64,000 bases of DNA from Lunularia cruciata (Eukaryota; Streptophyta; Marchantiopsida; Lunulariales; Lunulariaceae), in NCBI GenBank assembly GCA_948567375.1, contig OX419755.1, forward strand, positions 46,828,291 through 46,892,290, written 5' to 3'. The notes beneath the pieces were generated by a model that had not been told where the DNA came from, searched no databases, and was given only the letters and a program-made list of their open reading frames with translations. Position 1 is the stretch's first letter; each line of letters opens with the position of its first letter. Positions 1,555-53,996 of this stretch are shown one piece after another. Both the position numbers and the translations under genes were made by a program.

Positions 1555-1740
1555 CAACAGAGCGAGACAAGAAATTCTCTGTTGCTCCCGGATCTATTAA
1601 TACTCTCACTTGATTACCTTCTAGGATTCCATTCACAACAATCAATTGTGAGGTTGCCTTTCGGGATCTTTGCGCATTATTCTTCTTCCTTCCCTCGCTT
1701 CTCTGCTTCCTTATTGAGCCAGTAAGGCCGCGAGGTACAT
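1555..1740 (-). pseudogene. Ty3/gypsy aspartic protease, first part, cut at the breakpoint
   Basis: The translation runs through LIVVNGILEGNQVRVLIDPGA and NFLSRSV. The retropepsin active site is normally D-S/T-G-A; here it reads DPGA, a single T to C change, so the catalytic loop is probably damaged. The frame ends at the junction with CC element A. The next protease residues occur in frame at 53997 on the plus strand, ending in the typical [10 protein letters not shown]. Confidence 0.85.
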
Positions 1741-2829
1741 TTACTGGCAATCTTCATTTTCCGAAGTGGTTTCCACCTCCTCCTCTTCAATGTGCCTCTC
1801 CATGTTGTTCAAAGATCGCCTGTACGAAGGCCGAGGGCCTCTAGGGAAACGAGTGCGACAATTGGTAGATATGTGCCCAATACGGCCACAATTGTAACAA
1901 CGGCGTTGTTCTCCTCGAGTCCCTTCTCCTAGTGGGACTCCATCTCTTCGTTCTTCTACCCGTCCTCGCTCTCCTTGAAGCGGCCGTGCTCCTCGATCCC
2001 GAAATTGAAGGTTGCCCAATTCCATCTATACTGGTCCACCCATGTGTGGCATTTCTACCCGATAATGTTGAGGTAGAACTACTCCTTCACCTCCACCTAA
2101 TGCTCCGGCTATTCTCTGCGCACAAGCAATGGCTTCAAATACCGTGCGAGGGTTTTGCACCATGACTTCTTGGCGAATCCGCTCTTTCAACCCTTGTTTG
2201 AAATTGTCGAGAGCCTCTACTGGACTCATGTCGGTAATTGCGACTTGTAGATCCAGAAATGCCTCCACGTACTCTTGTACGCTATTCTTTTGTCTCAATC
2301 CCCATAGTCGGGTTCGAGCCATCTGCACAAAATCCACCGATTGGAAATTCTTGAGCAGTCCTTCTTGCATTGCTGTCCATGTGACCTCCCTTCTCTCTGC
2401 CAACATGGATTGTTCCCAAGCATCATACCATGTGAAGGCTTTATCGGTCAAGTACCCACATGCAAACACGCCTACAGCATGCTCTTTGATCTCTGTTGAG
2501 AACAATCAAAAATATCAATTCATTCTCGAGATCCAATTCTCCACTACTCCCATCGTACGCTGCCCCTTGTAAGGCTCGATGTTGCAGGTCTTCTTCATCC
2601 GGAGTAGCAATGTGGCTTCATCGTTGATAGGGTTTGTAGGCACGGGTGCCTCTCCAAGTACTTCAGTCGCAGGTACTGGGTTTTGAGACGGCTATTCTTC
2701 TTGCATGGCTTGATCGTTCCTGAGGATCTGCACTTGACTTTGCAATGTCTCCATGGTCATCTTAATCTCTCGAAATTCATTCAACATCCCTTGCATTCCT
2801 TGCACCAACTCTTGCAACTGCGGATCCAT
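1741..2829 (-). pseudogene. gag: Ty3/gypsy gag, broken
   Basis: The likely start is the ATG at 2829 (MDPQLQELVQ). The frame is interrupted by a TAG at about 2694 (probably an old CAG Gln) and further stops near 2510. An open part from 2505 to 2026 carries the capsid-like region (DKAFTWYDAWEQSM, NFQSVDFVQMARTRLWGLRQ), and the part to 1741 carries a nucleocapsid zinc knuckle, CYNCGRIGHISTNC, with C-x2-C-x4-H-x4-C spacing and basic flanks. In this family gag forms the particle shell and binds the RNA. With several stops this copy should not make a full protein. Confidence 0.85.
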
Positions 2830-3027
2830 GGTGCCTTGATGTGGAATAGGTTTGAGAATGGAAAGCTAGGTGTGGGAAATTGTCCCCCCGGCGCATCCAT
2901 CCCATCCGCTCTCTAAAGTCCTTCCTAAGTCTAGCGATTACTCTATGTTCTCCACCTCAAATTACTCAGTTTCAGTAGTTCGTGCTATTCCAAGAGGGGT
3001 GATCCACTCTCTTGGACTAGAACACTC

Positions 3028-3039
3028 GCTCTGATACCA
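3028..3039 (-). other. Primer binding site for initiator tRNA-Met
   Basis: TGGTATCAGAGC on the minus strand, one base beyond the LTR end. It is the usual plant Ty3/gypsy and Ty1/copia binding site complementary to the 3' end of initiator tRNA-Met, and it fixes the direction of this half element. Confidence 0.93.
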
Positions 3040-3040
3040 T

Positions 3041-3780
3041 TGTAATACTCCGAGGACAAGAGAAGAGAGAAAACACAGATTGCACACTCAAACATTCGAT
3101 GCCCCAAGGGAGCACCTTCTCTTTATTATATAGACAAAGAGGATCTCCTCCAAGGAAGCTCCACCATAGGATTAGGGACATAGATAGGTGACATGTCAGC
3201 AAGCTCCACCCTTGGATTACTGACTTGGATGGGTGACCTGTCTGGTCTAGGTCCTATCTGGTTGGTCAAACGAGCTTTGACCGGAGGGAATCTTTTAGGG
3301 AATCTTCCTGTAGGAATCTCAGAATCACATGAGTAAGGTACCGTTGGAAAGCTCTCGACGAGACAAACCAGAGGGGAGGGAAGGCCAGGCTTTCCTCTGT
3401 TGGGGGGGGGAATCTGCACATTTTCGAGGCCTAATTCATCCGTTTAGGCCTCCGAAATTGCCTTCAAAGATTTCAAGCATATTTCGGTTCCTACTCTATT
3501 AGTAGAAGTCCCCTTTTGGTGATACCTCTTTCTGATCTGTTTAGTCCATCATGTGTAACATCCTTCCAGATGTTACCAAACCAATTCTCACTTTCAAATC
3601 ATATGTCTAGCTATTGGTTCTAAGGTTCTCAAGTCTATTTCGGTTTCTGCCCTATTAGTAGAAGTACTCTTTTGGTGATACTTCTATCTGATCTATTTTG
3701 ACCATCATGTATAACATCATTCTAGATGTTACCAAACCAAATTTCACATCTAGATCATATGGCTAACCCTTGGTATTACA
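3041..3780 (-). repeat. 5' LTR of the Ty3/gypsy element
   Basis: 740 bp, starting TGTAATACC and ending GTATTACA when read on the minus strand, which makes an 8-bp terminal inverted repeat. It is nearly identical to the plus-strand LTR at 57249-57990: I count about 10 substitutions, nine of them transitions, plus a difference in a C run. A TATA-like box (CTATATAATAAAG) lies near 3121-3133. It carries an internal near-duplicate: the text around GGTTTGGTAACATCT and CAGATCAGA occurs twice about 170 bp apart. Confidence 0.95.
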
Positions 3781-5159
3781 CAAAGTTGGCAATGTATAAA
3801 GAAGATTGGCTTGCAGATTGAGAGCGTAAAAGGAAGATGAGATTGGAGCCATTGAAGGAGATCGTAATCAAGATGAATGCAATGCTGAGTACAAAGGCTT
3901 GTATTTGGATTGAAGAGACAAGGCTGCACGAGTTGGAGTTGTTGGTGCAAGAGATGAGGAGGAGATAGGCAAAGGATACCGATTTGAACGCGCTGTTGAT
4001 TAGTCTCAGAACTTGTGTAGATAGGAAGATATTGGAAGTCAAAGACAATATCGTGATTAGATCAGATCTATTGAAATTGGAGATAGATAAACTTTGGAAG
4101 GATGTTAGAGTCAAACCCGAAGTAGATGAGGTAGGAGTGCAGATGTCTTTGGAGTTACCATTAGAGACATTAGAAAAGAGTGGGTCAGCAGATAAGGAGT
4201 TAGATAGATTACCCACGAGTGAAATTTTAGATTAGGAAAGAGAATTGCTAGATCTGGTAGGAGATGTAGGAGTTATGAAACCCAAGGATAGAGTACTAGG
4301 AAGTACAGTTACTTTGGGTTTGGGTTTGAAAGCCAAAGAAGAAGTAGATATCAGATCGGATTAGTAACAGATTTGAGATTTGAATATGCAGATATGAAGA
4401 GGTGCATTGTCATTTCAAATCTGCAGGTTTGTAGAGGCATTAGGAAGAGGTGCATTAGGAAGATAATTGTCAATTGTTTCACTATTTAAGAGTAGCATTT
4501 ACAGTCTTATGTTGTTTAGTGCTCATAATTCTGAGAATAGATAAAGCAAAGTGTTCTGAAGTAGTGCTTGTCGCTTAAGCTTGATTCTGAGTATCAACTT
4601 TGGGTTTGTGTTTGTGAGTGTTTGAAGAAATTCAAAGTGCAAGTCAGTGTGTTTGTTGGATGTTGGATTCCGCAACCTTGATCTTCATTCTATGTGTGTG
4701 ATCCTGAGTGAAGTGCAATCAAGGCAATGCCTTGATAGATCTAAGAGGAATTGTAGTGTTGTTAGTATTCTGCATTTGTGAGTGCAGTGTAAAGTTGATA
4801 TGAAGCAATTTTGATCAAGGAAGTTGTGCCTTTAGTGGAGGGGTGAAACACAATTTTGAGGTGAAGTCATTTTGCAGTGAAGTGCCATTTTTGGGAGAGC
4901 CTGAATCATCACAATCAAGATTATTTGGAAAGAATTGATGGAGTTGTGATTAAGGAGTGTGAATTCGTGACAAGATTGTGAATCAGTGCTTGTTACTCTC
5001 TTCTAGGTGTGGTTTCTACCTGAGAGATTAAAGATGCAACCAAGAAGAACTACATTGTGACTTTTAACTTTGTATTTGACCAATTCTGACTCATATCTCT
5101 GTGGGAATGAACTTTACTTACCCAATTATCACAAAAGTGATATTTGCCGGGTTGTCACA
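3781..5159 (+). mobile_element. CC element copy B, back part
   Basis: This is collinear with 10830-12154 of CC element C. It carries the end of the coiled-coil frame (ARLHELELLVQEMR at about 3926; DNIVIRSDLLKLEIDKL at about 4047) up to a TAG at 4362-4364 after KAKEEVDIRSD, then 795 bp of noncoding DNA with a TATTTAAG box at about 4482. It ends GGGTTGTCACA at 5159, followed by ATTTC (5160-5164). The reverse complement of ATTTC, GAAAT, flanks the other end of the same copy at 60405-60409. The front part of copy B is at 57991-60404; the Ty3 element was inserted between the parts. Confidence 0.85.
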
Positions 5160-5164
5160 ATTTC
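5160..5164. repeat. Target site duplication of CC element B (left)
   Basis: ATTTC directly after the 3' end of copy B. The matching GAAAT is at 60405-60409. Together they rebuild the uninterrupted LINE text AGAGAAATTGAG seen at 35600-35612. Confidence 0.8.
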
Positions 5165-7250
5165 TCTTGGATCACTTGTTGGTATAGATCTCTCTTGTGA
5201 AAATCTAGACAAAGTTTCCTTTTAAAGGCATGCTCAATAGATAATGTGGTTTTATTGGGGCAAGGAAGAAGGATGGCACAAGATAGATGTGCATGGTCAG
5301 ATTTTGGTTGAGGATCTCAAACATCAAAATCCAAAACAACGTGTCTATCACTAGGTGAGGTGAGAAAATAATCTATCGTGCTTGCTCCACTAGAAGCAAA
5401 GCATCTGCTCTTATAAGTTTATGGAAATTGAGAAAGGCCATTCAAGATCTTCAAGCTACAATTGATACCAAAGCTCACTCATGGGGTTGGACATAAGATC
5501 TTTGGAAGAGCAGGACCAAGTGCTAGAATGGTCTATCACTATGGAAAGGATCATTGTTTCATTCTCAAGGTTACTAAATTCAGGAATTTGAGAAGCTTGG
5601 ATCCTAGAATTGAAATCACCAAGAACAAGTACTGCACCTTTACTTTGAAACTCCAACACATCCTTTGTTAAGGAGTAGAAAGGTTGCATGGTGTTGAGCA
5701 CTCCACTTGAATAGATTGGTGATGTCAATGGGGAAAAATAACAAACAACAAGGAAGAAATGTACAACAACTCCTCCAATCCTCAACCATTGGTATTGTCC
5801 ACTTGAGTCTTTGCCAATCAAAGAGACTGATTTTTCAAAGCCAAAACTGACATAAGTAGCAATACCTCCAAAGCCCATACCTCTATGTTGCCTCTGCTTG
5901 TTCTAGGTTGAACCAATAAGAGTGGAACCTTCAATATCTTGAATGGTGTTTCTTTCATGTTCCCATGTCTCCACAAGATTGATAAGATCAACATCATCCC
6001 ACAAAGGCTTAGCACTTGAGTACTTGGTATGTGTGACCCATGAATATTCCAAAAAACACTCTAAGGTTCTGGAATTGCTATGCATCAATTGATGATCTCT
6101 TTTGGGTGATCACAACTCTATTATGTCTCAAGAATACAACAAAACTTGCTTGTTCAATCACATTCACTTTTGATAATTCTCCTTTCTTTGCTTGCCATTT
6201 GAGAGATATGAGATTAGGGTCCAACTAGATACACCACCCCTTCAGTATAGCCTTGTTTGCCATCACTGAATTGCTTTGAGTTTTTGAGCCAAACCTCACC
6301 AAACCTGAAATCCTCAAACAGGCCCTACAAAGTTGGCACTCCAAACATGAAGATGCAGGAGATATGACAAAATGAGAATTGTCACCACTTCTTGCTCAAA
6401 CCTCCATGTGCTGCAAGCTTGGCCTTGAAAGAGAGCTTGTAAGTCATAGATTTTGATGTAGCAATCATCATTGGATTTCCACTTGTGACTGCAAAGCAAT
6501 ATCCCCCCAAATCCTTGCACAATCACATAGACTTCTCAAAGCTTCCTCAAAATAAAAAAATCCAAAACTCCTTGTGTATTGCTCCAAACTGCACAAGCTT
6601 TACCTTTAAATTAAGCTCTCATCATGTTGCTTCTAATGAAACCTCAATCATAACATTTGCTAAAGTATTGGCAAAGATATAATCCCCTAAGTATCTCTAA
6701 AAGTTGCAGATGTGAGCACCACCAAGCACACAAGATCACAGAATGATAAAACTCAAAACTTCTCTATAGAACTACAACTTCAGCCTTTAGGTACTCAATA
6801 TAAATCTCTTCCAGAGGTGCTCCTAATGAGCCTAAGATTGAAAAATTTGGACTTGGAACCACAAAGTTACTATGTGTCAAAATTGCACCTCAAACCCTAA
6901 AATTTGCCAAAGATAACAAAATTTGAATCCTCTTAACTTTTTGCACAAATGTGGTCTTCAAGGGCGCTTGGTATTAATCAAAAGATCTTTTCAAGGTGCA
7001 TCCAATGCAATAAGAATTACTCCATTTGGACTCCATGTGATGAAGATACAAACTATAAAAAAGGATCCTCTCTTAGGAAATTCAATCACTCATAACTTTT
7101 GGTGCATGTCTTAGAATGGTGCAATCTTGGTGGGCATGGAAAGCTTGTAGCAAGGTGCTTCTAAAAAATCAAAATTGCAAGGTTTAGACAAGTAGGTGCT
7201 GAGATATGTCATGCCAAACTTTTGGGAAATCTTGCTTTTCAAAATAAAAA
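5165..7250 (-). mobile_element. LINE-B, front half (5' leader, ORF1 remnant, endonuclease)
   Basis: Read on the minus strand from about 7250 it starts with the LINE 5' leader (7250-6310), jumps by deletion into late ORF1 (about 6300-6100), and continues into the APE-type endonuclease (about 6060-5400). Endonuclease motifs are readable: GGIATYVSFGFEKS, YFSPLTSPIY, VLVLGDFNSR, and further toward 5330 the region before SDH. There are frameshifts and stops. It is cut by CC element B at 5164 and continues at 60405 on the plus strand after the inversion is undone. It abuts LINE-C head to head near 7255. Confidence 0.85.
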
Positions 7251-7267
7251 AATCTCCTTCAAAAAAA

Positions 7268-8458: not shown

Positions 8459-8828
8459 TGTGGTACCCACATTTTTTGTTTTTCTATGTTTATTAGTGTT
8501 TAAGAGAAGAAGTAAGCACTGAAAGTCAAATTGCGGACAAAGAATGGACGGAAGTAATTTTGGAGGACATCCAAAGAAGACAACATCAGATCGGATGATG
8601 GAGGTACTTGGAAAAGGAGTACGATGGAAAAAGTCCGAAGAGCACTGTTTGGGTCAGAAGGCGCAGGAGATACGAAGACCATTTAACAACCTTGGTACGT
8701 GGCAAGAAAGTACATTTCAAGAAACAGCGGAGGCAAAAGAAGCATGTCTTGATAGTGACCGGGATTTGCATGCAGAAGAGAGAAAGTTGAAGCTGAAACT
8801 AACTGAAGAATGATTGCAATTTGTGGTA

Positions 8829-8839
8829 ATATAAAATTA
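8829..8839 (+). promoter_or_regulatory. TATA-like box of CC element C
   Basis: ATATAAAATTA, about 185 bp before the first conserved ATG. The same place holds TATAAAATTG in copy A (about 1142) and TATAAAAATT in copy B (about 60012-60003, minus strand). Conservation in all three copies suggests a promoter belonging to the element. Confidence 0.5.
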
Positions 8840-9021
8840 CAACTGCACAGGGACAAGTTGAATGTGCCGAGTAAATTTCCATTCCCTTTGAGTAGTTGTC
8901 CTGCAGTAATGCGTGTCTAGAAGCCCATCGAGAGTGAAATTTTCCAAAATCCCGAGGGAGTTAGAGTGTCTCGTCCAGGAGAGTGTATCATCTTCTAGCA
9001 TCATAGAACGAGAGAACAAAT

Positions 9022-11357
9022 TATGGCAAAGAAGGTGGCCAATGCGCTGGCAGTGTGAGGTTTCACAATTTGAAGATTAGATGTAGTAGCTAGAATTGAG
9101 GTCTTGACTAGACTTCGTATTACCTTTTTAGCAAGGAACTAGAATTGTAGTTTCCCGGGAGTGATGGCAGAGATTGCTGCCAGTAATTGTGAGGAAGGTC
9201 CCAAGCTGGAAGGGAAGAGAGGCAATCCGGCTCGATGGACTGAGTCAGATTGGAGGTTAGTATTGGGGAGAGAAGCAAGAGAGCCAATGGGAATCACCTT
9301 CTATCGGAAGTGTGATGCTACAGAGCAGACGGTAGAGATTCACAACTTGTTTTTTGCTCCAAGAATGACAAATGGGTACAAGTGGAGTCCTATCGGGATC
9401 CAATCCAAAGAAGCATTTTGGAGGCGATGATGGCCATGTTCAAGCCAGAACAAACCACCTATGTGAACATGTAGCAAGCTGTCTTTTTCCACCAGATGTT
9501 TGTAGGAGTTCCAGTAAATTGGGCAAAGTGCTTCCACCACCGAACAAGGCAGATGGTTAATTGGCAAACGGGCTCGCCACTGCATTACTTTTCACCATTT
9601 GCAATACATTTCTACTTTGGGCTGAACCTACTGACCAAAAAGAAGCATCATCAGATGGTGTCTCATGTTCATCCGGATTTACGACAGGAAGCAGATGAGG
9701 AAGAGCGCTAGTATATGCTGCATCTGCAAGCAAACAATGAATATTTCTCAAAGACCGGACAATGGAAGGTCAAAGAAATTACTAGTCTGAAGACAAAGAA
9801 ACGCGGCAAACCCAAAGAAGCAAAGTTGCCTTCCACTCAAAGAAAGACTCGGCGGCTGATTCTAAAGAATATGAAGATGGTGAGAGACGCATCATCAGGA
9901 TCGGAGTCTAGGGAAGAAACCAAATTGCAAGAGGAGGAGTCCAAAGAAGAGGAGCTCACCTTAAAAAGTGAGGAGTTTGGGAGTAATAGCAATGGGGAAC
10001 CAGAAGTTTAGCAATCAGTGGCGGTCAGTGAGGCTTGTCAAGCGATGGTGGTAAACAACCCAAGACCAGAAGAGAAGGAGGAGTATCCTACGGGACCAAG
10101 TTCAAGAAGCAAAGACAAAGAAAGTACCGACACAATCTCTCTGAAGATACAAAGATCACAACTTCAGATGAAGGAGCCAATGACAAAGGTGAAGACTCAA
10201 GACAAAGATGGCAATGATGAGGAAGAGAATGGCGGGATATCGTATTTAACGAAGGTGGTCACACCATTGCTGGAGCTATTGAAGGATCATCGGAAGGTAA
10301 TTCCCCAAGATAGTAAGAAGGGGATGAATGAGTTGCAGGTGGTGATGCACTTGATGAGGGAAGTGAAGGAGTTGCAAGAGCAACAAGTCCAAAGACGTGA
10401 AGAAGTGGAAGAACTTCAGAGGGAGGAAGGCTTGACAAAGAAGACTCTTACCATGTTAGAAGAAAGCTGTGAGGTAAAAGATAAAGAACTGCAAAGGCGA
10501 GTCGGAGAATTACGGAATAGGTGATGTAGCTCAGCAAGATGAAGGAGGAAGTGAGTGATGTACGCATCGAGAATGTCCATTTGAAGGCGATGACGATCGT
10601 AATGGAGCAGGAGTTGGATAGTTTGAAGAAGAGTGCAGCGGCAAAGGATCAAGCATGGTGGAGAGAGTTGGCAGCCAGGCAAGAAGAAGAAGAACAATTA
10701 CGAGAACTTGTTAGGAGCGCGGAAAGGCAGAGCACGCAGTATGCAGAAGAGAAGAAGATGCTCGCTGCGGAGTACGAAGACAAGTTGAAGATGTATTGTG
10801 AAGAGTTGAAGGTAGAACGTTCTCGAGGATATATATCGGAATTAGTGGGAGAAGTTGCGGGGAAGTTGAGAGCACTTCTAAGCACGAAGGCTGAAGAGAG
10901 ATTGGAAGAAGCCCGCCTACATGAGTTGAAGTTACTCGTGCAAGAAACTCGGAAGAGAAAAGCCAAGAAAAGCCAAAATCGGACCTTGTTGATCCGATTG
11001 AGAGAGCGTGTAGATCGAAAAATGTTAGAAGTAGAGAATAATGTTAGTCTTCAATTAGATTTGGTTAATTCAAAGTTAGAGAAAATTCATAATAGTGTGA
11101 CAGTGGAGCAGAAACCTGATGTTGCAGAAATAGGAATTCAGGTGTCATCGGACTTGAGAATTGACATATTAGAGAAGAATGGGTCAGGAGATTAAGCAGT
11201 AGATGGAGTAACACTGAGCTCAATTGTAGTTCCTAGTGTAGAACTAGTAGAATTAGTGAAGGAATTAGTAGAATTAGCTATACCCAAAGAAGGAGAAATG
11301 ATAAGAAGATCATCGGGTTTGGAAGCCGATGATGAGGTAGACATTGGATCGGGGTAG
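9022..11357 (+). pseudogene. CC element protein (globular domain plus coiled coils), copy C, broken
   Basis: I do not recognise this protein. The start is set by the ATG at 9022 (MAKKVANALAV) and the end by the TAG at 11355-11357 after DEVDIGSG, which matches copies A and B. In order: a Trp-rich front (ARWTESDWRLVLGRE at about 9229; FKPEQTTYV, then FFHQMFVGVPVNWAKCFHHRTRQMV at 9485-9560; FAIHFYFGLNLL; MVSHVHPDLRQE at about 9656), a Lys/Glu/Ser-rich linker (9715-10230), and two coiled-coil blocks (about 10250-10520 and 10540-11100, ending in RLHELKLLVQETRKRK and IRLRERVDRKMLEVENN). Several stops and at least one frameshift (about 9420) make it inactive. The layout recalls extra ORFs of unknown role in some plant LTR elements; that is only an analogy. 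Confidence 0.75.
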
Positions 11358-12154
11358 TACAATTTTGAGATAGGAAGAGGCAAATATGAAGAGATAGATT
11401 ATCAATTGGGATCTGCATGTAGGAAGAGATGTTAGGAAGCGGTGCATATGTAGGAAGAATTGCCATTTGCTTCAGTATTTAAGGAGAGCATTCGCAATGC
11501 AATGTTGTTCAGTATTCATATTTATGAAGATAGATAAAGCGAAGTGTTGTTCTCAGTGCTCGTTTCTTAAGCTTAATTCCGATTGTCAATTTTGTGTTTG
11601 TGATTGTGAGTGTGTGGAGAATTCCGAAGAGCAAGTCAGTGTGTCGGTGGATGTTAGAATCAGCAGCCTTGATCTTCATTTTGTGTGTTTGATCCTGAGT
11701 GAAGTGCATTCGAGCAATGCCTTGATAGATCTGAGAGGAATTGTAGTGTTGGTAGTATTCTGCATTTGTGAGTGTAGCACAAAGTTGATGTGAAGCAATT
11801 TTGATCAAGGAAGTTGAGCCTTCAGTGGAGGGGTGGAACACAATTCTGAGGCAAAATCATTCTTCACAGTGAAGTGATGTCTTTGGGAGAATTTGAATCA
11901 TCACAATCAAGAGTTGTTTGGACAAAATTTGCTATGATGTGATTATGTGTGTGTATTCGTGACAAGTTGTCAAGATTGTGAGCTTGTTACTCTCTTCTGG
12001 GTGTAGTTTCTACCTGAGAGATTAAAGAAGAAACCAAGAAGAACTGCAATTGTGACTTTTGACTTTGTATTTAGACATTTTTGCATAGTATCTCTACGGG
12101 AACGAACTTTACTTACCCGATTACCCCAAAAGTGATATTTGCCGGGTTGTGACA

Positions 12155-15060: not shown

Positions 15061-15675
15061 GAAACTGATTATAATATAGCACAAGGGCCGTGTCAGAAGG
15101 GCGCCACCCATCGAATGCTCAGTGGACAGCTCACGCGAAGTTGGAAGCGCGCCTCTTTTAGTGGCAAAGTTCCACGCGCAGTTCGAAGCCCGGTCGCAGA
15201 AGGCAAGCGGAGAATCGGACACCGGCCAGTGTGTAACCGGGAGGGACCAGTATTCTCATTTCTCCTTCTTCCTGTCTGACTTTAGCTCCGGTCGTGGTGC
15301 CGCCCTCTAGGACAGACAGAAGACAGCAGAGCAAAGAGACGAGACGAGCTCGTAAGTCTTGGAAGGGTGGAAGAGGAAGAAGGGTTGCTGTTGATACTTT
15401 TGCGGATCTTCGTCGTCGTCGTCGTGGGAGGAGGACGTCGATTTCTCGTAGATCGGTTGTGTTCGCCTGAGAGCAGTACGCTAGAAGGAGGAGCAAGAAG
15501 GAAGTAGGGCCAGGGTAAGGCAGGTGGCGGAGAGTGTTATTGGAGACGCGATCGAGGGTAGATAGGGCGGGGAAGAGGTGGAGGTAAGGAAAGAGTGACT
15601 ACTTCGAACGACGAAGAGCAGGAGGAGGAGGAGGACTCTTGACAGGTAAGAGTGCGTCTGGTTACTGGGGCGACG
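15061..15675 (+). promoter_or_regulatory. Probable promoter and 5' leader of the SNARE gene
   Basis: A GC-rich, CpG-containing stretch with CGT and GGA simple repeats (CGTCGTCGTCGTCG at about 15410; GGAGGAGGAGGAG near 15620) precedes the start codon, unlike the surrounding AT-rich DNA. A possible TATA box, TTATAATATA, is at about 15068-15077. GGTAAG at about 15645 could be a leader donor site but needs no intron before the ATG. The transcription start cannot be fixed by eye. Confidence 0.4.
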
Positions 15676-18600
15676 ATGCCGGTGGCTCTGGGATCCGCGG
15701 CTTCGTCTTCCTATAGAGATAGAACTTCGGAACTTCATTCGATAGCAGAAAGGTTACGAAAAACTCAGGCGTTTTCTGGTTCTGCTCCTAATACTCAATC
15801 GTCAGCTGCCAATGGATCCGTCGACGGCTCCGCCAGGACGCAGGGTCCGCAATCGTGTGGATCTGTTCAATCGGAGTTTAATAAGTTAGCATCCAGAATT
15901 GGCCTGAGTATTCATCAAACTTCACAGAAACTCTCGAAGCTGACCAAGTGTAAGTCCTTTCTCTTCCATCTGAACATGAAATGGGAGTTAAATACCAGAC
16001 GAATTCCAGTTGCATGTTCGTCATCTGTCCCCAACTATCAATGTACGCCACCTGTGAAAGTCAAAGCTTGCTGACATTACTCTGATTGATACAAGAGCGA
16101 ATTGTTCCTGAGCAAATGTATAAGTAAGGAAGAAAGACGCACAATGTTTGTTCCCGCTGCTCTTGACTTGCAATCAGGTCCTAGTATGCCGGTTTGGTGA
16201 ACCCAACTTATCGAATCCACTTGTTGTCTGCCATTTGCATCCGTCGCCGGGATACTTTAGGTCAGAGTAGATGTCTTCTGTTGTACCCTGCAGAACTACC
16301 GCATAGCATGCATGAGTCTTGTACATCGTGTCGTGTCTGAACATCTGAACGTCCTTCTAATCAGCGTGCATGCATAAACCTGCAGTGGCAAAAAGGACAT
16401 CAATGTTCGATGACCCCGCAATAGAAATTCAAGAACTTACTGCTGTGATTAAGGAAGACATCAAAGCTTTGAATGAAGCCATTTTCAACTTACAAGGCGT
16501 ATGTGACTCAAGAAATGACGGTGGAAACAGAAGTACACACAGTAGTGAACACTCGACGACTGTTGTGGACAATTTAAAAAGTCGACTTATGAGTACTACA
16601 AGGGAGTTCACTGATGTACTCACTTTACGAACTGAGGTGAGCTTGGTGATTCTTCTACTGACCGTGGGCGATCTAGGCATGTATCGTGGCAGAGCAGGTC
16701 CTTGTCCCTTGTACATTAGTGGAAGGATGCGTAGTGAGCATCATGCTGGTGTAAGGTGAACATTGCTGTTTACTCGTTTTCGACTGTTCTTGTAGATCAC
16801 CTTCCGCCCTCAGACAACCCATTTTTCCCCACGCTTTGAAACTGACTGGAGCACCTACATTTGCAGAATCTGAAGGTCCATGAGAACAGGAGGCAACTCT
16901 TCACAGCCACTCCATCTAAAGAGCAAAGCAACCCTTTCAGTCGACAGGGTCCTCTGGCAAACGTAAATAGAAACATTACAAGTAGTAATGCGGGTGCGGG
17001 GCCAGGTCCTGGCACTAGTACAAGTGCCAGTCCTGTAACTCATCCGTGGGCTAACGGAGGGGCTGCTACTCAAACTCCACTATTCTCAAGGTACCCATAC
17101 TTCAATACCGCAATCACGGCTGATTTTAGTGACTTGCTCGAACTCAAGATGATAGAAGTCTTACTCCTTTTTCAGTTAGGAAAAGGTGGATAGTCTGCCA
17201 TTCTCCTGTCGCGTCTTACGACAGTCGGTATTTTCCCATCTGTTCGTGCCTATCCCACCGTCGTTTTTACTCGATAATGACCTATGTGACGGTGATTGTG
17301 GGTAAACTAATTGGGTTCTTGGGAGGATCGCTGTTGCACACCTCTCGGATTACACTCCTTTGACTGTGACGTCTGGTGACATAGATCTTGAGCACTTTTC
17401 AAGAAAAGCAAGTATTGCGGCTGACGACTCAGAAACTAACGAGCCAGCTCTCAGAGATTTAAAACCAGTGTCGGGAGATTAGTTGTGCATCCCTACAGTG
17501 ACTAGATTCTCGGTTATCGCAAATGTGCTCCATAATTTCATGGCGAGTGTCAATGGTACGAAGAGCGAGCACATTCGTTTTTATTTATTGATTCCCTTCT
17601 GATCGTTTGCTAGACTAAGTACACTGATCGGGCTGTTTCCATTTGAAGAGTTCATCTACTTTTATTTGTGGTCATTGGGAACGGGCACTCTGGCATCGGA
17701 CCAAACAAACTGGATGTTGGCCATGAAAATTGGATGAGACTACGCCGTGGCTGATCCTTCGGGAGGCCCAAACATGTTTGCTCATTGTTCAATCGAGAAG
17801 GTTATGCTTGATGGCTCAGGGCCCTGCAATGTAACGTTGTGATGGTTTCCATTTTCGTCCCAGACTGTTTTGACTCGACTTTCCAACTACCTTTGTTTGT
17901 GATACTCGAAACCGCAATCTTATCAAAAGAGCTTCCGAAGCAATTTAGTTTAATTGCCTAATCTTAGACGTCAGTGATTACTTGTCGGAAAGGGTATATG
18001 GAAGTGCAGCTTTTTGTCTCAGCGAAGAAACTTGGACCGTCCTAAATTAGGTTACATCGGACAAAGTTGAACAGATGGAAGTTGTAGGGTTCTATTTGGT
18101 TTCAAATCTTCCTTGTTGACTATCCCTGTACCAAGTCTAGTACCGACCTGTTGTTCTTACCACTGATCATTCGGTGCCCTTGATGTAGCATTTGACTATT
18201 GTGGACTGGCTACTGTTTCAGAGGGAGGGGTTTGTGCAAGACTGCTTGAAGAAGATAAAAGAGAGGTCAGGACCATCTTCATGATGGTTTTGGGAGTTTT
18301 TGCAAAAGATTTTTTAAGACTTTATTGGTTGGTGAATTGGCATGTGGCAGAGAGCTATCAGTTGGCTTGTCCAGTCGCACTAAGTTGAGGTCTGTCTTTG
18401 TATTTCCGGTCCATGGCAATTGTTGGTAGTTCTGGAGAAGGACGTCCTTGTTGTAATCTTATTTGTTTCTGAAATATTTTGAAATGGCATGTGTGTCCTG
18501 TTTTAATCTGAAGAGGTTCAGTTCGAGGAAGTGCCTTTAGTCTAGAGATGCGTCAGCTGGCCTGCTTTGCAAATCAATGTGGAGTGCCACAACGAACAAT

Positions 18601-20048
18601 CTTGTGCATTTTAGATTTGTTCATATTGGTCTATTATTTCATTGTTTTTATATCACTGCTCATATCATTGTCAAGCTGACCAATGGGAAATGATCTTATG
18701 CACGAAAATGTTGCACATGCATACACTTTTTTGAGAGCACCAAGTGGTTCCGTGTCTAGTATGGGGTAGGATGTAGTAAAGAGCTGGCTGTATATTGGGA
18801 TTCGTAACCTAGTTCCTAAGTTTCTACCACGATGTACTGAGGATAACATCTGTTTTGTGTATTCAAGATTTGTTATCTGATTTTCGGGTTATGCTGGGGT
18901 GCTCAGTAAAGTCGACCATGATTTTAGATACTGTATCTAACTTGGTATTTGTTTGTAGGCGGCGCCCAAATGCTGATGGTGGATCAACTCCTGGATTATT
19001 GCAAAGCCAAATGCAGCAGCCGCTGCAGCAGCAGCAACAACAACAACAACAACTAGTTCCTGGCCAGGACAGCTACATGCAGAGTAGAGCAGAGGCACTT
19101 CGGAATGTAGAGAGTACGATAATAGAGCTTAGCAGCATCTTCACTCAGCTGGCTACCATGGTTCACGATCAACATATTCAAATCTCAAGGTTTGTTCGTA
19201 ATATGACTTTCTCTTGCTCTCCCTTATTTCTAACAACCTCTGACCTCAACATTGATAAATGAGATTCCACAAGAAGATTGAGCATGTTTGGTGCATCGTA
19301 AGATGTCGATGGCGTGCAAGGATTTTGCCTGAGTTGGATTTCGTTAGCGTGTTTTGAAGTTCAAAGCGTCGTCAAAACAAGAAGTAAGAGCTTTGGTCAA
19401 CAGTCGTGTGTGGCAAATGTCACGTAGTTCGTTTTTGTACTTGACTCTTACTCGATTTAGTGCTTTCTCTCTCTATACTTCTTTTTTTCCCGTATCAAAA
19501 CCTCATTTAGTTGAGGCCAGCCCGAGTGACATGCAGACAATACCTCCTTCCGTACCTTGATTACAAAAAGAGGGAGTAAAGGAGGTCGTTACCAGATCTT
19601 GGTAGCGAGGGCTAAAAGCATAAAGGAAGTCTTGCTCTGCTTTCTCCTGGCTGTTATTACGGTTGTGAACACTATTGGTACTAGCGCAGACGGAATTGAT
19701 TGGGAAATCCCAAGCTGCCTAGTGTAATTTCAGTCATGCAATATTGCTGATACACGACACAATCATCCCGTGAGCGAATGGAATTAATCTTGTTCTAAAT
19801 CTGCTCGGTGTAGTTTACGCTTTATATACGCATTTTCATTTCTCCATAAGTACATTATTACCAACATCATTCTTGCACTTGTGAACAGAATTGATGATGA
19901 CCTCGGCGTGACAGCGGAAAATGTTGAAGGAGCGCAAGGAGCACTTCTCAAGTACTTGAATGGAATTTCTTCGAACCGGTGGCTGATCATCAAGATATTT
20001 TTTGTGCTTATCATTTTCCTGTTAATTTTTGTCGTCTTCGTGGCCTGA
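15676..20048 (+). CDS. SYP3: Syntaxin-5 class Qa-SNARE (SYP31/SYP32-like), five coding exons
   Basis: Qa-SNARE of the Sed5/Syntaxin-5 family, which acts in ER-Golgi and intra-Golgi membrane fusion. Coding exons: 15676-15949, 16386-16636, 16867-17090, 18959-19189, 19889-20048; all introns are GT-AG and phases match, giving 379 residues. Domains: an N-terminal DRT-x-EL peptide (residues 15-20; in Sed5/Syx5 this motif binds Sly1), a conserved SEFNKLASRIGL block (66-77), Habc helices (about 96-165), a low-complexity linker with nine Gln (273-281), the SNARE helix (about 289-350, zero-layer Q321 in MVHDQ), and a C-terminal anchor (about 359-379) ending FVVFVA. The ATG is chosen because it opens the family N-terminus. 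No stop or frameshift is seen. SYP31 against SYP32 cannot be settled without a tree. The gene lies inside the proposed inversion. Confidence 0.95.
17091..18958 (+). other. Intron 3 of the SNARE gene (1,868 bp)
   Basis: The longest intron, from GTACCC to TTTGTAG; the flanking exons join in frame through a split Arg codon (AG|G). It contains no coding motifs and no copies of the window's LINE, CC or Ty3 repeats, so the gene has escaped the nearby insertions. The other introns are 436, 230 and 699 bp. Confidence 0.85.
19026..19052 (+). repeat. CAG/CAA repeat coding nine glutamines
   Basis: Three CAG then six CAA codons in exon 4 of the SNARE gene, just before the SNARE helix. The unit is likely to vary in length; the linker position suggests that this would be tolerated. 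Confidence 0.9.
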
Positions 20049-34332: not shown

Positions 34333-36298
34333 ATGAGAGTTGAGAAGGAAGATACAAAGGCCATAGTGTGTGAGTTTATTGATGATTCTTTGAGAGTCCA
34401 TGACCCTCAAATTGTGCAAGCATATAGATTGGGACGGGAAGGTGCACAACCAAGAAGCATTTCGGTGAGGTTTGGCTCAGAAATTCAAAAGAATTTAGTG
34501 ATGGAAAACAAGGCTATATTGAAGGGGTGGCTCATCTGGTTAGACTTTGATATCAGATCTCTCCGATTGGAAAGTAAAGAAGGGAAAACTAGCAAAAGTG
34601 AAGGAGGCTCAACAATCAGGTTTTGTTGCATTCTTGAGAGATAATCTAGTTGTGATTACTCAAAAGACATTTTCAACTACTGCATAGCAATTCCAGATCC
34701 TTAGAGCGCTATTTTGGAATGTTCATGGGCTCAACACATACCAAGTACTCTAGTGCTAAGCCTTTGTGGGATGATGGTGATCTGATCAATCTTGTGGAGA
34801 CATGGGAAAATGAAGGAAATACCATTCAAGACATTGAAGGTTTCACTCTTGTCGGTTCAACCTGGAACAAGCGGAGGCAACACAAAGGAAGGGGCTTTGG
34901 TATTGCTACTTATGTCAGATTTGGCTTTGAGAAATCAGTCTCTTTGATAGGCCAAGACTCAAATGGAAAATACCAATGGTTGAAGATTGGAAGAGTTGTT
35001 ACACCTTGCTTCCTTGCTGTTTGTTACTTTGCTCCATTGACATCACCAATCTATTCAAGTGGAGCTCTCAACACCATGCAGCCTCTCCACTCCTTGACAA
35101 AAGGATGTGTTGGAGTTTCAAAGTAAATGTGCAGTACTTGTTCTTGGTGATTTCAATGCTAGGATCCAAAAATTTTGCATCCTAAGTCGAGTGACCTTGA
35201 GAATGACCCTATTTTACCTTAATAGATGATTTTAGTACTTGGTCTTGCTCTTCCCTAGATTCCATTAGCAACTCCATGAGTGAGCACTTTTTGAGCTTTG
35301 GTACCAGTTGTAACTTGAAAATCTTGAATGACCTTTCTCAATTTCTTGAAACTTGTAAGAGCACATGCTTTGCTTCAGGTGGATCAAGCACAATAGACTA
35401 TATGCTCACCTCACCCAGTGAAATACACCTTGTCTCAGAGTTCACTATTTTAGATCCTCAACTTGAATCTGACCATGCACCTCTATTTTGTGCCATCCTT
35501 CTTCCTTGCCCAATAGAACCACAATACCTATTCATCATGCCTTTAGAGGGAGACTCCATCTAGATTTTCACAAGATAGATCTGTACAAACAAGCTATCCA
35601 AGAGAAATTGAGCACTATGGAGTGGAGTTCTGATTTTCAACAACATACTGATCATTTGGTTGCACTTTGTCAATCTACATCTACTACTATATTTCCAAGT
35701 GGTTCTCATAGGAAGAGACTTGGTCTCCCTTGCAATAAGTGGTATGATATAGACTGTAAAATGGAAAGGATCAAAGCTATGGATAGGTCACTTGATCAGA
35801 TTGCACAAAATCAGGCTTTTGCCTCTTATGGGAAGTTGGTGAAGTGCAAGAAGCGGGCATTTTTGAGACTCAAGGGGGCTGAGTTGAGCATTGAGTTGAG
35901 AAGCAATCCCAAGGCTTTCTAGATCAAGGTAACCATCAGATCTCCATCTCCATCCTTGAACTTGAATGAGCTTTGTAACTATGTGAAGGATGTGTACTTT
36001 TTCCCAAATGCTCCAAGCATGGCATCTAGCCTTGGATTGGTTCTCACCATTGCTGAAGCTGATATGAAGTACAAACCTCAAGAAGTTGGCCAATGGTAAG
36101 GCTGAAGAACTTGATGGACTATGCATTGAAGTTCTAAAGTGGGGTGGTAGCCATTTGATTCCCGTACTCACTTCTCTCTTGAATGAAGCAATCAAGTGTG
36201 GCTTTCTTGATAGCTGGTGCTTGAATAATGTAGTTCCAATTCACAAGTCTGGCCAAAGATATGTTGTTAGCAATTACCGTACCATACTAGTCGGGGAT
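34333..36298 (+). mobile_element. LINE-D1 (end of ORF1, endonuclease, start of reverse transcriptase)
   Basis: It starts in the ORF1 RNA-binding region (KEDTKAIVCEFIDDSLRVHDPQIVQAYRLG) and passes into ORF2, where the endonuclease is well kept: NVHGL, ETWENEGNTIQDIEGF, GIATYVRFGFEKS, YFAPLTSPIY, VLGDFNAR, STIDYMLTS, ESDHAPLFC. The linker (GSHRKRLGLPCNKWYDIDC) and the first RT block (KCGFLDSWC, VPIHKSGQ, SNYRTILVG) follow. At about 36298 it is cut by the 5' leader of LINE-D2; no continuation is found after D2. Confidence 0.88.
34710..36298 (+). pseudogene. LINE ORF2 remnant: APE endonuclease and start of reverse transcriptase
   Basis: In this family ORF2 nicks target DNA with the endonuclease and primes reverse transcription there. 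Catalytic-type residues are visible: Glu in ETW (about 34798), Asp and Asn in GDFN (about 35149), and SDH (about 35470). At least two frameshifts (near 35110 and 35200) and several stops (for example TAG at about 35224 and about 35564) break it. It is the best-kept endonuclease in the window apart from LINE-G. Confidence 0.82.
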
Positions 36299-42672: not shown

Positions 42673-42674
42673 GC

Positions 42675-47205: not shown

Positions 47206-50200
47206 AATGAACAATGAACAATGAAACATAAAGCCCAAAACACCCAAAGAGTCAAAAGGCTAAAAACACAATATAAAACACATGAAATGTGAGCCTAGGG
47301 CATCTGACCAAATGTGTAACAAATTGGTCTGATGTAAACTAACCTTGGTCATGTACTTCCCTAATACTAAAGCCTCAATTTGTAAGAGTGTTGAAAAATC
47401 ACTACAACTAATCTTATGTCTGACTCTGATCTGCTTGTAACAAGGTCAATCAACAAAAACATGGTGCTCATCCTCAACTTTGCTCATTATACACAATTTT
47501 CAAAGTTGCATGGAGTGCTCTATCTATTGCCAATACCCTTGTTCTACTTCTAGTCTATTAGAGCTAGTTCTATACCAAGCAAAAACATATCTAGTGAAGT
47601 AGAAATCCTAGCCAAGAGATAGTCTTGCTCACAATACACCAACATAGGATTTACAAATTGTTGATAAAACACTATCTTTGTACCGGGTTGCTACCATAAG
47701 CAAAGTAAGAATTGCTCCTTGATCACTTCTCATAGTGCAATAGGCTCCAATCTCCAATGTCGCTCACAAACATTCCACCTTGTGGCCCATGCAATCAGAT
47801 CTATATACGAACCAACAGATAGAGTGGCACAAAAAGCTTGGTATAGAAGTCTCTCATGCTCCATGGACCTCACCTTAGTGGTATATGTGAGAGCTAAGAA
47901 CAAAGTTTCAGCCTCAAGAGGCAAAAACCCTATTTCAGCAAGCAACAATATATAATGAGTTTGAGTCCTCACCCCAAGTTCATCACACAAATTATTTTTT
48001 GAACTTTCTCCACCTTTTGCCACCATGTCTTCTTAGTACCTGGACCCTAAATCTGAGCACCATAGAGAACCATCGGCTGCACAAGAGATCTAAACAACAC
48101 CTTCTTCAACTCCCATGTGGTAAGATGAGCAAGTCTTGAGCGATTCATGAGTGAATACAAAGCTCTAAACCCTACATTGATTCTCATCTTCACACAAGTA
48201 GACCAACTATAGTCATGAGAAAACTCAAGGCCCAAGTACTTATAAGAAGAATTTTCTCCAAATGCTGTCCATAAAAAAAGAAAGGTGTGGCGCCTTTAGA
48301 ACCCACCACAATCACCTTGGACTTGTCAAGGTTCACCTCCATCTTTGTTTGATTGCAAAACAAGCAAAGAGAATCCAACATTTTTTGTAAACTCTTTGGA
48401 TTGGTAGAGTGGAGCACTACATCATCTGCATAAAGGAGTGCATGTATCATCAAAGAGCCAACCTGTACACCTCTAGCTCTAGCTTCCATGAGTAGTCTCT
48501 CTACTTCATTGATGAAGATTCCAAACAAAGTTGGAGATAGAGAGCAGCCTTGAATCACACCCATTGTGCTAAGGACATCTTGAGAGCTCAAAGATGAAAG
48601 TCTCACCACCACTTTCTCATAGAGTCTAGAGATAGCACCAATCAGATTAGTTGAAATACCAACTTCAATGAGTCTCTCACTTAGAGATTTCCCAAGCACC
48701 TTATCAAAGGCCTTCCTGAAATCAATAAATGCAACATAGAGAGCTCTCCCAACACCTTTATATTTCCACCACAAAACATGGAGTACCAATAGGTGGTCCA
48801 AATTACTAAAGCCTGATCTGAAACCAACTTGGCACTTAGCTTGAATTCTGGACTTTTCAGCCCAAGTACTTAACCTGGACTCAAAAATTCGACCATACAA
48901 CTTGTCAAAAATACTACCAACTAGTATGGTACAATAATTGGTGACAATATCTCACTAACCAGACTTGTGAATTGGGACTACCTTCTTGAAGCACCATCTA
49001 TCGGGAAAGCCTCATCTGATTGCCTCATTGAAGAGAGAAGTGAATATTGGAATCAAATGGTTACCACCCCACTTCAAAAGTTCAACACATAGTCCATCAA
49101 GTTTTTCAGCCTTACCATTGGCCAACTTCTTGAGTTGGTACTTGATATCAGCTTCAGAGATGGTTAGAGCAAATCCAAGGCTAGGTGCCATGCTTGGAGC
49201 ATAAGGGAAAAAGTACAGATTCTTCACATAATTCAAAGCTCGTTTAGATCCAATGATGGTGATGGAGATGGAGATCTGATTTTTGCCTTCTTTCTTTGCT
49301 CCTTGACTTAGTGCTCAACTCAACCCCCTTGAGTCTCAAGAATGCCCGCTTCTTGCACTTCACCAAATTTCTATAAGAGACAAAAGCTTGATTTTGTGCA
49401 ATGTGGTCAAGTGACCTATCCATAACTTTGATCCTTGCCATTTTACAATCAGCATCATACCACCTATTGCAAGGAAGACTGAGTCTCTTCCTATGTGAAC
49501 CTCTTGGAAATAAAGTAGTAGATGTAGATTGAAGAAGTTCAACCAACTGATCACTACGTTGTTGAAAATCAGAACTCCACTCCATAGAGCTCAATTTCTC
49601 ATGGATAGCTTGTTGGTACAGATCTTGCTTGTGGAAATCTACACGGAGTTTCCCTCTTAAGGTATGGTCAATAGGTAATGTGGTTCTATTGAGGCAAGAA
49701 AGAAGGATGACACAACATAGAGGTACATGGTCAGATTCAGGTTGAGGATCTAAAATAACAAAATTTGAGACAATGTGTATATCATTGGGTGAGGTGAGCA
49801 TATAATCTACAATGCTTGATCCACCTTAAGCAAAGCATGTGCTCTTACAAGTTTCAGGAAATTAAGAAAGGCCATTCAAGATCTTCAAGCTACAATTGGC
49901 ACTAAAGTGCAAAAAGTGCTCACTCATGGGGTTGGACATGAGATCTTTGGAAGAGCGGGACCAACCACTAGAATGGTCTATCAGACTATGGAAAGTATCA
50001 TTCTCAAGGTCATTAAACTTAGGAATCTAAGAAGCTTGGATCCTAGCATTGACATCACCAAGAACAAGTTCTACACCTTTACTTTGAAATTCCAACACAT
50101 CCTTTGTCAAGGAGTGGAAAGGCTGCATGGTATTGAACACTCCACTTGAAAGATTGGTGATGTCAATGGGGCAAAGTAACAAACAGAAAGGAAGCAAGGT

Positions 50201-50781: not shown

Positions 50782-51906
50782 TGAAACAATGAAACAATGA
50801 AATATAAAGCCCGAAAGACCCAAGGAGTCAAAAGGTTGAAAACAAAATACAAAACACATGTAAAGTGAGCCAAGGCAAGATCCTAGTACATCTGACCAAT
50901 GTGTTATAAACAGGTGCAATGTAAACTTACCTTGGTCATGTATTTCCCTAACGCTAAAGCTTCAATCTGCAAGAGTGCTGAGAAATCACTACAACCAATC
51001 TAATGTTTGACTCTAATCTAATGGTAACAAGGTCAATCAACAAACACATGGTGCTCATCCTCAACTTTGCTCATAGTACACAATTTGCAAAGTTGCATGG
51101 AGTGCTTTATTTGCTGCCAACGCCCTTGTTCTACTTCTAATCAATGAGAGCTAGTTCTATACCAAGAAATATTATATCTAAGTGAAGTAGAATTTGTAGC
51201 CAAGAGGTAGTCTTGCTCACAATACACCAACATAGGATTTACAAATTGTTGATAGAACACCAAAGAACAAAGTTTCAGCCTCAAGAGGCAAAAACCCTAT
51301 TTCAGCAAGCAACAATACATAATGAGTTTGAGTCCTCACCCCAAGTTCATCACACAAATTTTTTTTTGAACTTTCTCCACCTTTTGCCACCATGTCTTCT
51401 TAGTACTTGGACCCCAAATTGGAGCACCATAGAGAACCACCGGCTGCACAAGAGATCTGCACCATCTTCAACTCCCATGTGGTAAGATGAGCAAGTATTG
51501 AGCAATTCATGAGTGAATACAAAGCTCTTAACCCTACTTTGATTCTCATATTCACACAAGTAGACCAACTATAGTCATGAGAAAACTCAAGGCCAAAGTA
51601 CTTATAAGAAGAAATTCCTCCAAATGCTATCCATAAAAAAGAAAGGAGTGGCTGTTTTAGAACCCACCACAATCACCTTGGACTTGTCAAGGTTCACCTC
51701 CATCATTGTTTGATTGCAAAACAAGCAAAGAGAATCCAACAACTTTTGTAAACTCTTTGGATTGGTAGAATGGAGCACTACATCATCTGCATAAAGGAAT
51801 GCATGTATCATCAAAGAGCCAACATGTACACCAATAGCTCCAACTTCCATGAGTACCCTCTCTAGATCATCAATGAAGATTCCAAAAAAAGTTGGGGATA
51901 GAGAGC
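50782..51906 (-). mobile_element. LINE-A, back half
   Basis: Minus-strand 3' tail (TGAAACAATGAAACAATG...), ORF2 C-terminus with an internal deletion near 51260, then RT text (LTTWELK, MEVNLDKSKVIVVGSKT, AFLYADDVVL, SPTFFGIF) up to GATAGAGAGC at 51906, where CC element A begins. With the inversion undone this is the downstream part of the LINE at 1-856; about 150 bp of LINE at the join is lost together with the 5' end of CC element A. Confidence 0.85.
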
Positions 51907-53996
51907 TATGACAACCTGGCAAATATCACTTTTGTGGTAATCAGGTAAGTAAAGTTTGTTCCCAAAGAGATACTGATCAGAATTGGTCAAATACAAAGCA
52001 AACAGTAACACTTCAGTTCTTCTTGGGTTCTTCTATAATCCCTTAGGTAGAAACTACACCCAGAAGAGAGTAACAAGCTCACAATCTTGACAACTTGTTA
52101 CAAATTCAAACACCAATAATCACAACATAGAAAATTCTCTCTAAACAAATCTTGATTGTGATGATTCAGATTCTCCCGAAGATGGCACTTCATTGCAAAA
52201 TGACTTTGCCTCAGAATTGTGTTCCACCCCTCCACTGAAGGTACAACTTCCTCAATCAAAATTGCTTCACATCAACTTCACGCTACACTCACAAATGTAG
52301 AATACTACCAACACTACAATTTCTCTCAGCTCTGTCAAGGCATTGCTCCAATTGCACTTCACTCAGGATCAAACACACAAAGTAAAGATCAAGGCTGGAA
52401 AATTCAATATCCACAAACACACTAACGTGCACTTTGAAATTCTCTACACACTCACAAACACATACACAAACTTGACACTTGAAATTAAACTCAAGTGACA
52501 AGCACTAAAATCAACACTTCACTTTATCTATCTTCAGAAAGATGAATATTGAACAACAGTTTACTATGCATGCCTTCCTTAAGTACTGAAGCAATTGACA
52601 ATTATCTAACAAAAATACCATTCTACAACAACTCTTCTACCCTACATATCCAAACTAACAATGAAACTCTTCATATCTGCCTCTTCCTATCTCAAATCTA
52701 TTACTACTCCGATCTGATGTCTACTTCATCATTGGCTTTCAAACCCGATGATCTTCCTACCACTTCTCCTTCTTTGGGTATGTCTACAACTACCAATTTC
52801 TTCACTACTTCTACTACTTCTTCACTAGGAACTACAATTGCACTAAGGAGTGACTTATCTACTCTTTATCTCCTAACCCACTCTTCTCTAATGTGTCAAA
52901 TGACAAAACCGAAGACACCTGAATTCCTACTTCTGCAACATTGGACTTCCTCTCCTCTGTCACTAAACTCCGTATTCTCTCTAACTCTAAATTGACTAAA
53001 TCTAATTTGAGACTAACATTGTCTCCTACTTCTAACATTTTCCGATCTACTCACTCTCTCAATTGGATTAGTAGAGTATTCATATCTACATCTTTGGCTT
53101 TCCTCTTCCAAGTTTTCTGCACAAGCAATTTCAACTCGTGTAGGCGTGCTTCTTCCAATCTTCCTTCAGCCTCTGTGCTCAACATTGCTCGCAACTTCCC
53201 TACAACTTCTTCTATGGATTCCAACTCATACCCCCAAGATTTCTCTACCTTCAATTCTTCTTGGTACATCTTCAATTCATCTTTGTACTCAGCAGCAAGC
53301 ATCTTCTTTTCCTCCGCATATTGAGAACTCTATAACTCAACACTTTGTACCAACTCATGCAACCTTTCTCCTTCTTGATTTCTGACTGCCAACTCTCTTT
53401 GCCATGCTTGATCCTTCCCGGCTGCACTTTTTCTCAAGCTTTCTAACTCCTACTCCATTATTATGGCCATCTCTTTCACATGAATACTCTCAATGCGCAC
53501 ATCATTGACTTCTTCTTCATCTTGGTCAGCATCATCGTCTGCTCCTTCCATTTTTCAACTTGATGCTGCATTTCTCTCCCTCTTGCCTCAAAACTCTCTT
53601 GCAACCTCTTGAAAGTTTTCTTCTTCAAGACTTTATCCACCCAAAGTTCTTCAACTTCCGCATCTCTTTGGATTACACGCTCTTGCAAATCCTTCACTTC
53701 AGCCAGCAGGTACTTCACCACCTGCAACTCATTTGTCACCTTCATACAATCTTGGGGAATTACCTTCTAGGACTCTTTCAATAGCCCCAACAGTGAAGTT
53801 ACAACAGTGGAGTTTCAATAGCCCCAACAGTGGAGTTACAAATAAAACTCCACCTTGTAACCATTTGTTGTACGTGGAGCAAATAACAAATTGCGTATGT
53901 CCGCCGTCTCCTCTGCAGCATCACACTTCCGATAGAAGATGATCCCCATCGGTTCTCCTACTTCCTTCCCCAACACTAACCTCCAATCCGACTGAG
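51907..53996 (-). mobile_element. CC element copy A, back part, cut at the inversion breakpoint
   Basis: Read on the minus strand it begins at 53996 with CAGTCGGATTGG, exactly where the plus-strand front part (857-1554) stops by comparison with copy C (9241/9242). It carries the later coding region, a TAG at 52704, 797 bp of noncoding DNA and the end GGTTGTCATA (terminal TGTGACAACC changed to TATGACAACC on the plus strand). LINE-A text follows directly at 51906. Confidence 0.85.
52704..53996 (-). pseudogene. CC element protein, copy A, back part, broken
   Basis: Minus strand. Readable blocks: LGKEVGEPMGIIFYRKCDAAEE (53975-53905), a deletion of the remainder of the front domain and the linker, then coiled coil NELQVVKYLLAEVKDLQERVIQ (about 53735-53670), AEYKDELKMYQEELKVEKS (53295-53240) and RLHELKLLVQKTWKRK (about 53155), ending before TAG 52704 with the shared ANDEVDIRSE-like tail. 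It is not functional. The 3' noncoding part has 797 bp, the same as copy C. Confidence 0.7.

Follow-up and report, generated by a model that had tools for sequence, protein, structure and literature searches.

A segment of 52,442 bp (positions 1555-53996) in the genome of Lunularia cruciata has very probably been turned around by one simple reciprocal inversion with breaks at 1554/1555 and 53996/53997, as judged from a comparison of repeated sequences within this genome (565.8 Mb in 74 contigs). The window, the whole stretch of DNA that was analysed, has a length of 64,000 nucleotides and corresponds to C1:46828291-46892290. A Ty3/Gypsy retrotransposon and a 3.7-kb element, referred to as CC element A, are each split at both junctions and the halves are complementary (table 1). 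The label "CC" was taken over from an earlier reading of the window made from the sequence alone (the sequence-only reading) and does not derive from a coiled-coil prediction. The two junctions are reciprocal, with opposite orientation and complementary sides, and turning the segment also rejoins a second copy (CC element B) with a perfect ATTTC duplication and a long interspersed nuclear element (LINE-B). Since elements insert whole, the uninverted arrangement can be regarded as ancestral without an outgroup. The inversion is an event of an ordinary and well-known kind but the clarity of its record is uncommon, and no published report of this particular inversion was found among titles and abstract openings.

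Complementary halves of the split elements

Each continuity was checked singly, without joining the halves beforehand, against copies from the window and from the genome at large, where the best 40 candidates were scored per search. The unbroken reference copy in the window, CC element C, aligns to the left half of CC element A (875-1554, plus strand) at 8564-9242 and to the right half (53996-53847, minus strand) at 9240-9388, with the final 1-3 bases of the right half at 53994-53996 being ambiguous. The sequence-only reading had proposed that CC element A becomes continuous at 9241/9242 of CC element C; the continuity stands but the point is shifted to 9242/9243. CC element C and all six relatives that were fetched are uninterrupted over the break point. 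Six places were present both among the matches listed for the left half and among those listed for 150 bp of the right half (C1:62231084, C59:8060, C8:9503177, C10:18935718, C1:1509750, and C1:44410788). The left and right matches abut with an identical 3-bp overlap in five of these places; at C1:44410788, the remaining one, the match to the right half begins at query base 6 and extrapolation brings it into agreement. The six CC copies that were read include three of these places (C1:62231084, C59, and C8:9503177). Among the matches listed, the right-half relatives ranked 1, 2, 3, and 4 hold ranks 1, 3, 15, and 2 for the left half.

The Ty3 element is likewise divided at neighboring bases. In copy L069, a longer piece of L002, which is one of the 27 sister copies read (out of at least 39 non-self matches), window position 1555 aligns to base 3099 and position 53997 to base 3098, and the equivalent bases are adjacent in all 27 sister copies. 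The alignments to CC element C and to the Ty3 sisters thus bear out the junction positions of the sequence-only reading as well as its claim that the Ty3 protease becomes continuous after inversion. The domain order gag, protease, reverse transcriptase (RT), RNase H, integrase, and chromodomain, read in separate pieces, is that of a Ty3/Gypsy element with a chromodomain. The protease start is short and has a weak Pfam score (E 0.04-0.06, below the cut-off), and the protease was called from this score together with its position. The long terminal repeats (LTRs) have the ends TGTAAT...ATTACA, which fits the TG...CA pattern.

CC element B has its 5' end at 60404 (minus strand) and its 3' end at 5159 (plus strand), and the 5-bp target duplication is perfect, inverted, and 55 kb apart. 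Both duplication copies expected from the proposal that CC element B continues around the Ty3 insertion with perfect ATTTC/GAAAT flanks were found. The two parts of LINE-B meet at LINE 35603-35610, with an overlap that approximates the size of a target duplication plus chance matches. It had also been claimed that LINE-A and LINE-B regain their downstream parts; this applies to LINE-B and LINE-A is reunited too, except that ~153 bp of LINE-A are missing at 854/855. The first ~104 bp of CC element A are gone at the same point. This deletion is a separate event, located in the outer unmoved part close to the inversion.

The two LTRs of the Ty3 element (3041-3780 on the minus strand, left; 57249-57990 on the plus strand, right) are inverted, lie 53 kb apart and differ by 10 substitutions and two gap columns over 740 bases (98.4% identity, Kimura two-parameter distance 0.0137). 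They were compared with 60 other LTRs, which are near matches picked by search. A maximum likelihood tree of the 62 LTRs places the left LTR, the right LTR, and L052 in one group (support 0.79). The state at alignment column 352 is found in the left and right LTRs and in none of the 60 others, and that at column 334 in two of the others. No other LTR is nearer to the right LTR than the left LTR is, with one tie. Against the 10 substitutions between the left and right LTRs, two presumed LTR pairs, whose members share one orientation and have coordinates 5.9 kb apart, differ by 9 and 12, and the median between 58 LTRs is 18. Overall, the two LTRs would fit one insertion, which supports the inversion but does not prove it.

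Several observations weigh against a single inversion that split single copies. Five of the 60 other LTRs are nearer to the left LTR (10-11 differing columns) than the right LTR is (12), and three tie. The group of left and right LTRs holds a third LTR (L052), and three of the columns that differ between the two vary elsewhere, with the state of the right LTR present in 12, 11, and 9 of the 60 others. Furthermore, when LTRs of different loci are paired, 47 of 1653 pairs are separated by 10 or fewer substitutions, and the LTR distance is therefore no proof by itself. The Ty3 target duplication CTTTG/CTCTG carries one mismatch; the flanks are those given in the sequence-only reading, with 4/5 positions identical. 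CC element A has no 5' junction, its 5' end having been deleted at 854/855. The 150 bp of CC element A beside the right break match C11:3779572 best (94%, among the matches listed), and this place is absent from both half-element lists, so that different parts of the element do not all have the same closest relatives.

Junction scars and rival explanations

The sequence GGACTGAGTC spans the break in CC element C and in four of the six relatives read. In L090, the closest relative of both halves of CC element A among the matches listed, A replaces G after ACT, and L094 departs from the sequence at another base. At the left junction GGACTG is kept and followed by Ty3 sequence from 1555, whereas the minus strand of the right piece has CTCAGTCGG instead of the expected CTGAGTC. 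The scar fits a TG microhomology on the left combined with a GAG filler (53994-53996) on the right and no loss. It also fits a private substitution in CC element A with 1-bp overlaps (T at 1553 and G at 53996) and small fill-in duplications. By our own count, both scar readings give a net change of +3 bp with no base lost. The longest word common to the 100-bp stretches at the two breaks, compared on both strands, has 7 bp, and no common word of at least 8 bp was found between these stretches on either strand. The rejoined ends thus show only microhomology (1-2 bp) or a 3-nt filler without long homology, and the absence of a common word of at least 8 bp favors end joining over recombination between repeats, as had been suggested earlier. 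We infer that repair occurred by non-homologous end joining (NHEJ). The accompanying claim that the junctions share only a GC dinucleotide is roughly right at best, the overlaps being T or TG on the left and G or a GAG filler on the right.

An inversion by non-allelic homologous recombination (NAHR) between inverted repeats is very improbable although inverted LINE, CC, and LTR copies are plentiful in the window. The junctions join CC element A to Ty3 at breaks that share no homology of the kind just described, and the inverted LTR pair lies 1.5 and 3.3 kb from the breaks. Recombination between these LTRs would flip 3781-57248 with breaks inside the LTRs, which is not observed, and repeat recombination was rejected. 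The same LTR pair bears on the idea that the segment was flipped in the assembly while the plant is uninverted: the region is repeat-dense and inverted LTRs with 98.4% identity could mislead an assembler. The usual places for mis-joins in an assembly are scaffold gaps and long repeats that are nearly identical. Neither junction lies within the LTRs, the window contains no N or other ambiguous letter, and the breaks again lack a common word of at least 8 bp. The genome is moreover assembled in 74 sequences for 566 Mb and the extra 3 bp resemble a repair scar, making an assembly error improbable and suggesting that the junctions are really present in the plant and not in the assembly only.

The halves might alternatively be separate partial insertions or deletion remnants produced by two independent truncations, given that a first look at the genome yields thousands of candidates (4322 for the Ty3 LTR and 4269 for CC), many of which may be partial. 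However, the halves abut within 3 bases in both elements. By our own arithmetic, if elements 3.7 and 6.2 kb long were broken at random, agreement to within 3 bp in both would arise about twice per million. Chance would also have to account for the match of the target duplications and of LINE-B between the sites. The sequence-only reading, which considered independent truncations unlikely, had allowed that an intact Ty3 element elsewhere might explain each half as a separate copy. Uncut copies do exist (27 out of 27 read) but do not explain separate insertions: the exact complementarity, the grouping of the LTRs and the target duplications divided between the two sites indicate that the halves are not separate insertions. 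Independent truncation was rejected on the complementarity in two elements and we give it an extremely small chance. Aberrant transposition, the mechanism put forward for the Vandal5 inversion of Arabidopsis, in which one element end inserts elsewhere while the other end stays attached, would agree with the location of both breaks within transposons. The breaks are, however, interior (in the Ty3 protease and in the CC element), hundreds to thousands of bp from the termini, the junctions have no surrounding target duplication, and Ty3 elements move by copying and not by excision. A transposition-driven inversion was rejected on the position of the breakpoints away from transposon termini and is a negligible prospect. 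An inversion from staggered breaks with sizeable duplicated flanks was also rejected, the net gain being 3 bp only. A single inversion, as proposed in the sequence-only reading, explains the split elements and the copies across the whole genome agree with it.

Order of events and comparison with known systems

The nested elements suggest the following order. LINE-A and LINE-B would have been in place before they received CC elements A and B, and the chromodomain Ty3 would then have inserted into CC element B. Two double-strand breaks, one within CC element A and one within the Ty3 protease, were probably followed by rejoining of the segment backwards through NHEJ with no base lost and 3 bp gained, the rejoined ends having either a microhomology of 1-2 bp that arose by chance or a filler of 3 nt. 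The syntaxin gene within the segment would have been turned along with it. The LTR divergence sets an upper limit on the age of the inversion. If substitutions accumulate at 7e-9 per site per year, as is assumed for Arabidopsis, the Ty3 insertion would be about 1 million years old; nine out of 10 LTR substitutions are transitions and methylation may therefore inflate this age.

The inversion has left an inverted pair of LTRs (740 bp, 98.4% identical) that brackets 53 kb. Further flips could use this pair as a substrate. The possibility that the LTRs have already mediated a second flip was rejected as each LTR keeps the neighbors expected after a single inversion (gag and the 3' part of CC element B for the 5' LTR, pol and the 5' part of CC element B for the 3' LTR).

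The inversion was compared with published systems on the basis of the available parts of the respective texts. For Drosophila subobscura and D. melanogaster, NHEJ ("cut-and-paste") inversions and staggered-break models are described (PMC6861252). As in the NHEJ inversions, two unrelated break sequences were rejoined in reverse, for which a unique origin is expected (PMC6861252), but in the present case split transposons in one genome reveal the ancestral arrangement. The staggered-break models explain a fragment duplicated at both breakpoints (PMC6861252), whereas the gain here is 3 bp. A 1.17-Mb inversion with a Vandal5 element in Arabidopsis thaliana (PMC5664140) resembles the present one in that it affects a plant and has a transposon at the breakpoint. 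There, the transposon end was taken as the cause (PMC5664140), and the inversion is ~22 times larger than the present segment; here, the breaks are interior and the elements look like passive targets. In wheat, large rearrangements were traced via transposon insertion sites (PMC7156093), with transposons similarly used as landmarks and end-joining scars with small microhomology or filler, but in contrast to the present analysis two genomes were compared (PMC7156093). Further examples are an inversion between liverwort sex chromosomes (PMC13182070) and large inversions in maize that were detected by synteny (PMC2773423).

Inversions of tens of kb are hard to detect or to polarise without an outgroup. 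In the window, one genome suffices: the order in which the transposons are nested shows which arrangement is ancestral, where the breaks fell, what scar the repair left, and how old the inversion can be at most. It is conceivable, though rather doubtful, that young uniform Ty3 elements and older CC copies in this repeat-rich genome together act as a built-in recorder through which one assembly would be enough to detect inversions of 10-100 kb, to polarise them, and to set an upper limit to their age, that the present inversion is recent and possibly still polymorphic, and that the 740-bp inverted LTR pair (98%) around the SNARE (syntaxin) gene could reflip the segment. If this recorder reading is true, gene comparisons would miss such inversions of 10-100 kb. 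If many such cases exist in the genome, the rate of small inversions and the mode of their repair would be directly measurable in a little-studied plant group.

Features of the window

Table 1. Coordinates of the junctions and features in the window.
Feature	Position	Strand	Remarks
Left inversion junction	1554..1555	.	CC A joined to Ty3 protease; overlap T (1553) or TG (1553-1554)
Right inversion junction	53996..53997	.	CC A joined to remaining Ty3 protease; 1-bp overlap (G at 53996) or GAG filler 53994-53996
CC element A, 5' part	855..1554	+	875-1554 matches CC C 8564-9242; at least 39 other copies at 84-88%
CC element A, 3' part	51907..53996	-	Matches CC C 12150-10265 and 9388-9240; at least 39 other copies at 82-91%, plus 3 second pieces
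Ty3 element, 5' half	1555..3780	-	LTR 3041-3780, gag (2026-2505), protease start; Pfam Retrotrans_gag 2.8e-12, Ty3_capsid 1.9e-9
Ty3 element, 3' half	53997..57990	+	Rest of protease, RT, RNase H, integrase, chromodomain, LTR 57249-57990; Pfam RVT_1, RT_RNaseH, Integrase_H2C2, rve, Chromo
Ty3 target-site flank CTTTG on minus strand	3781..3785	-	
Ty3 target-site flank CTCTG	57991..57995	+	
CC element B, 3' part	3781..5159	+	4322-5155 matches CC C 11315-12150; ends ...GTTGTCACA
CC element B, 5' part	57991..60404	-	60403-60380 matches CC C 8460-8483 (100%); 59797-59306 matches 9068-9557 (66%)
CC B target-site duplication ATTTC, inner copy	5160..5164	+	
CC B target-site duplication GAAAT (ATTTC on minus), outer copy	60405..60409	+	
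CC element C, unbroken reference copy	8459..12154	+	Perfect TCAAG duplication on both sides; ends similar to CC B
LINE-A, upstream part	1..854	+	Outside inverted segment; 159-854 matches LINE 49387-48699 at 84%
LINE-A, downstream part	51263..51906	-	Matches LINE 47896-48545 at 93%
LINE-B, upstream part	5158..6303	-	Matches LINE 35610-34461 at 83%
LINE-B, downstream part	60410..60826	+	60404-60826 matches LINE 35603-36021 at 86%
Syntaxin gene (Syntaxin-5-like)	15643..20000	+	Pfam Syntaxin-5_N 7.9e-5, above cut-off, first exon only

The exons seen in the syntaxin gene, for which SYP3 is a plant name, extend to ~19980 inside the inverted segment, and both breaks are more than 13 kb from any of these exons. 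The Ty3 element lacks ~390 bp at 2835, between the LTR and gag, relative to seven distinct copies (L002-L008) and has an in-frame stop in pol, and is thus defective. Among named proteins, the best Ty3 matches come from Riccia sorocarpa (81% and 71%, with 68% of the query covered), which points to a liverwort as the likely source.

The CC elements are ~3.7 kb long, start with TGTGGTACCC, end with GTTGT(C/G)ACA, and are flanked by 5-bp target duplications. Between the two terminal 800-bp stretches of CC element C, the only matches are of 10-14 bp. A Pfam search with two CC reading frames gave no family above the cut-off, and a search for protein homologues of one CC reading frame gave 86 candidates with none at E <= 0.001. 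First-look candidates in the genome amount to 4269 for the left half and 14261 for the right half. Relative to CC element C, CC element A carries an internal deletion at 53795-53847 (CC C 9388 to 10265), where cagtggagtt occurs twice (53805 and 53828). Two of the closest relatives listed for CC element A (C8:9492622-9496262 and C8:9502499-9506111) lie 10 kb apart in the same orientation and may represent a local tandem duplication.

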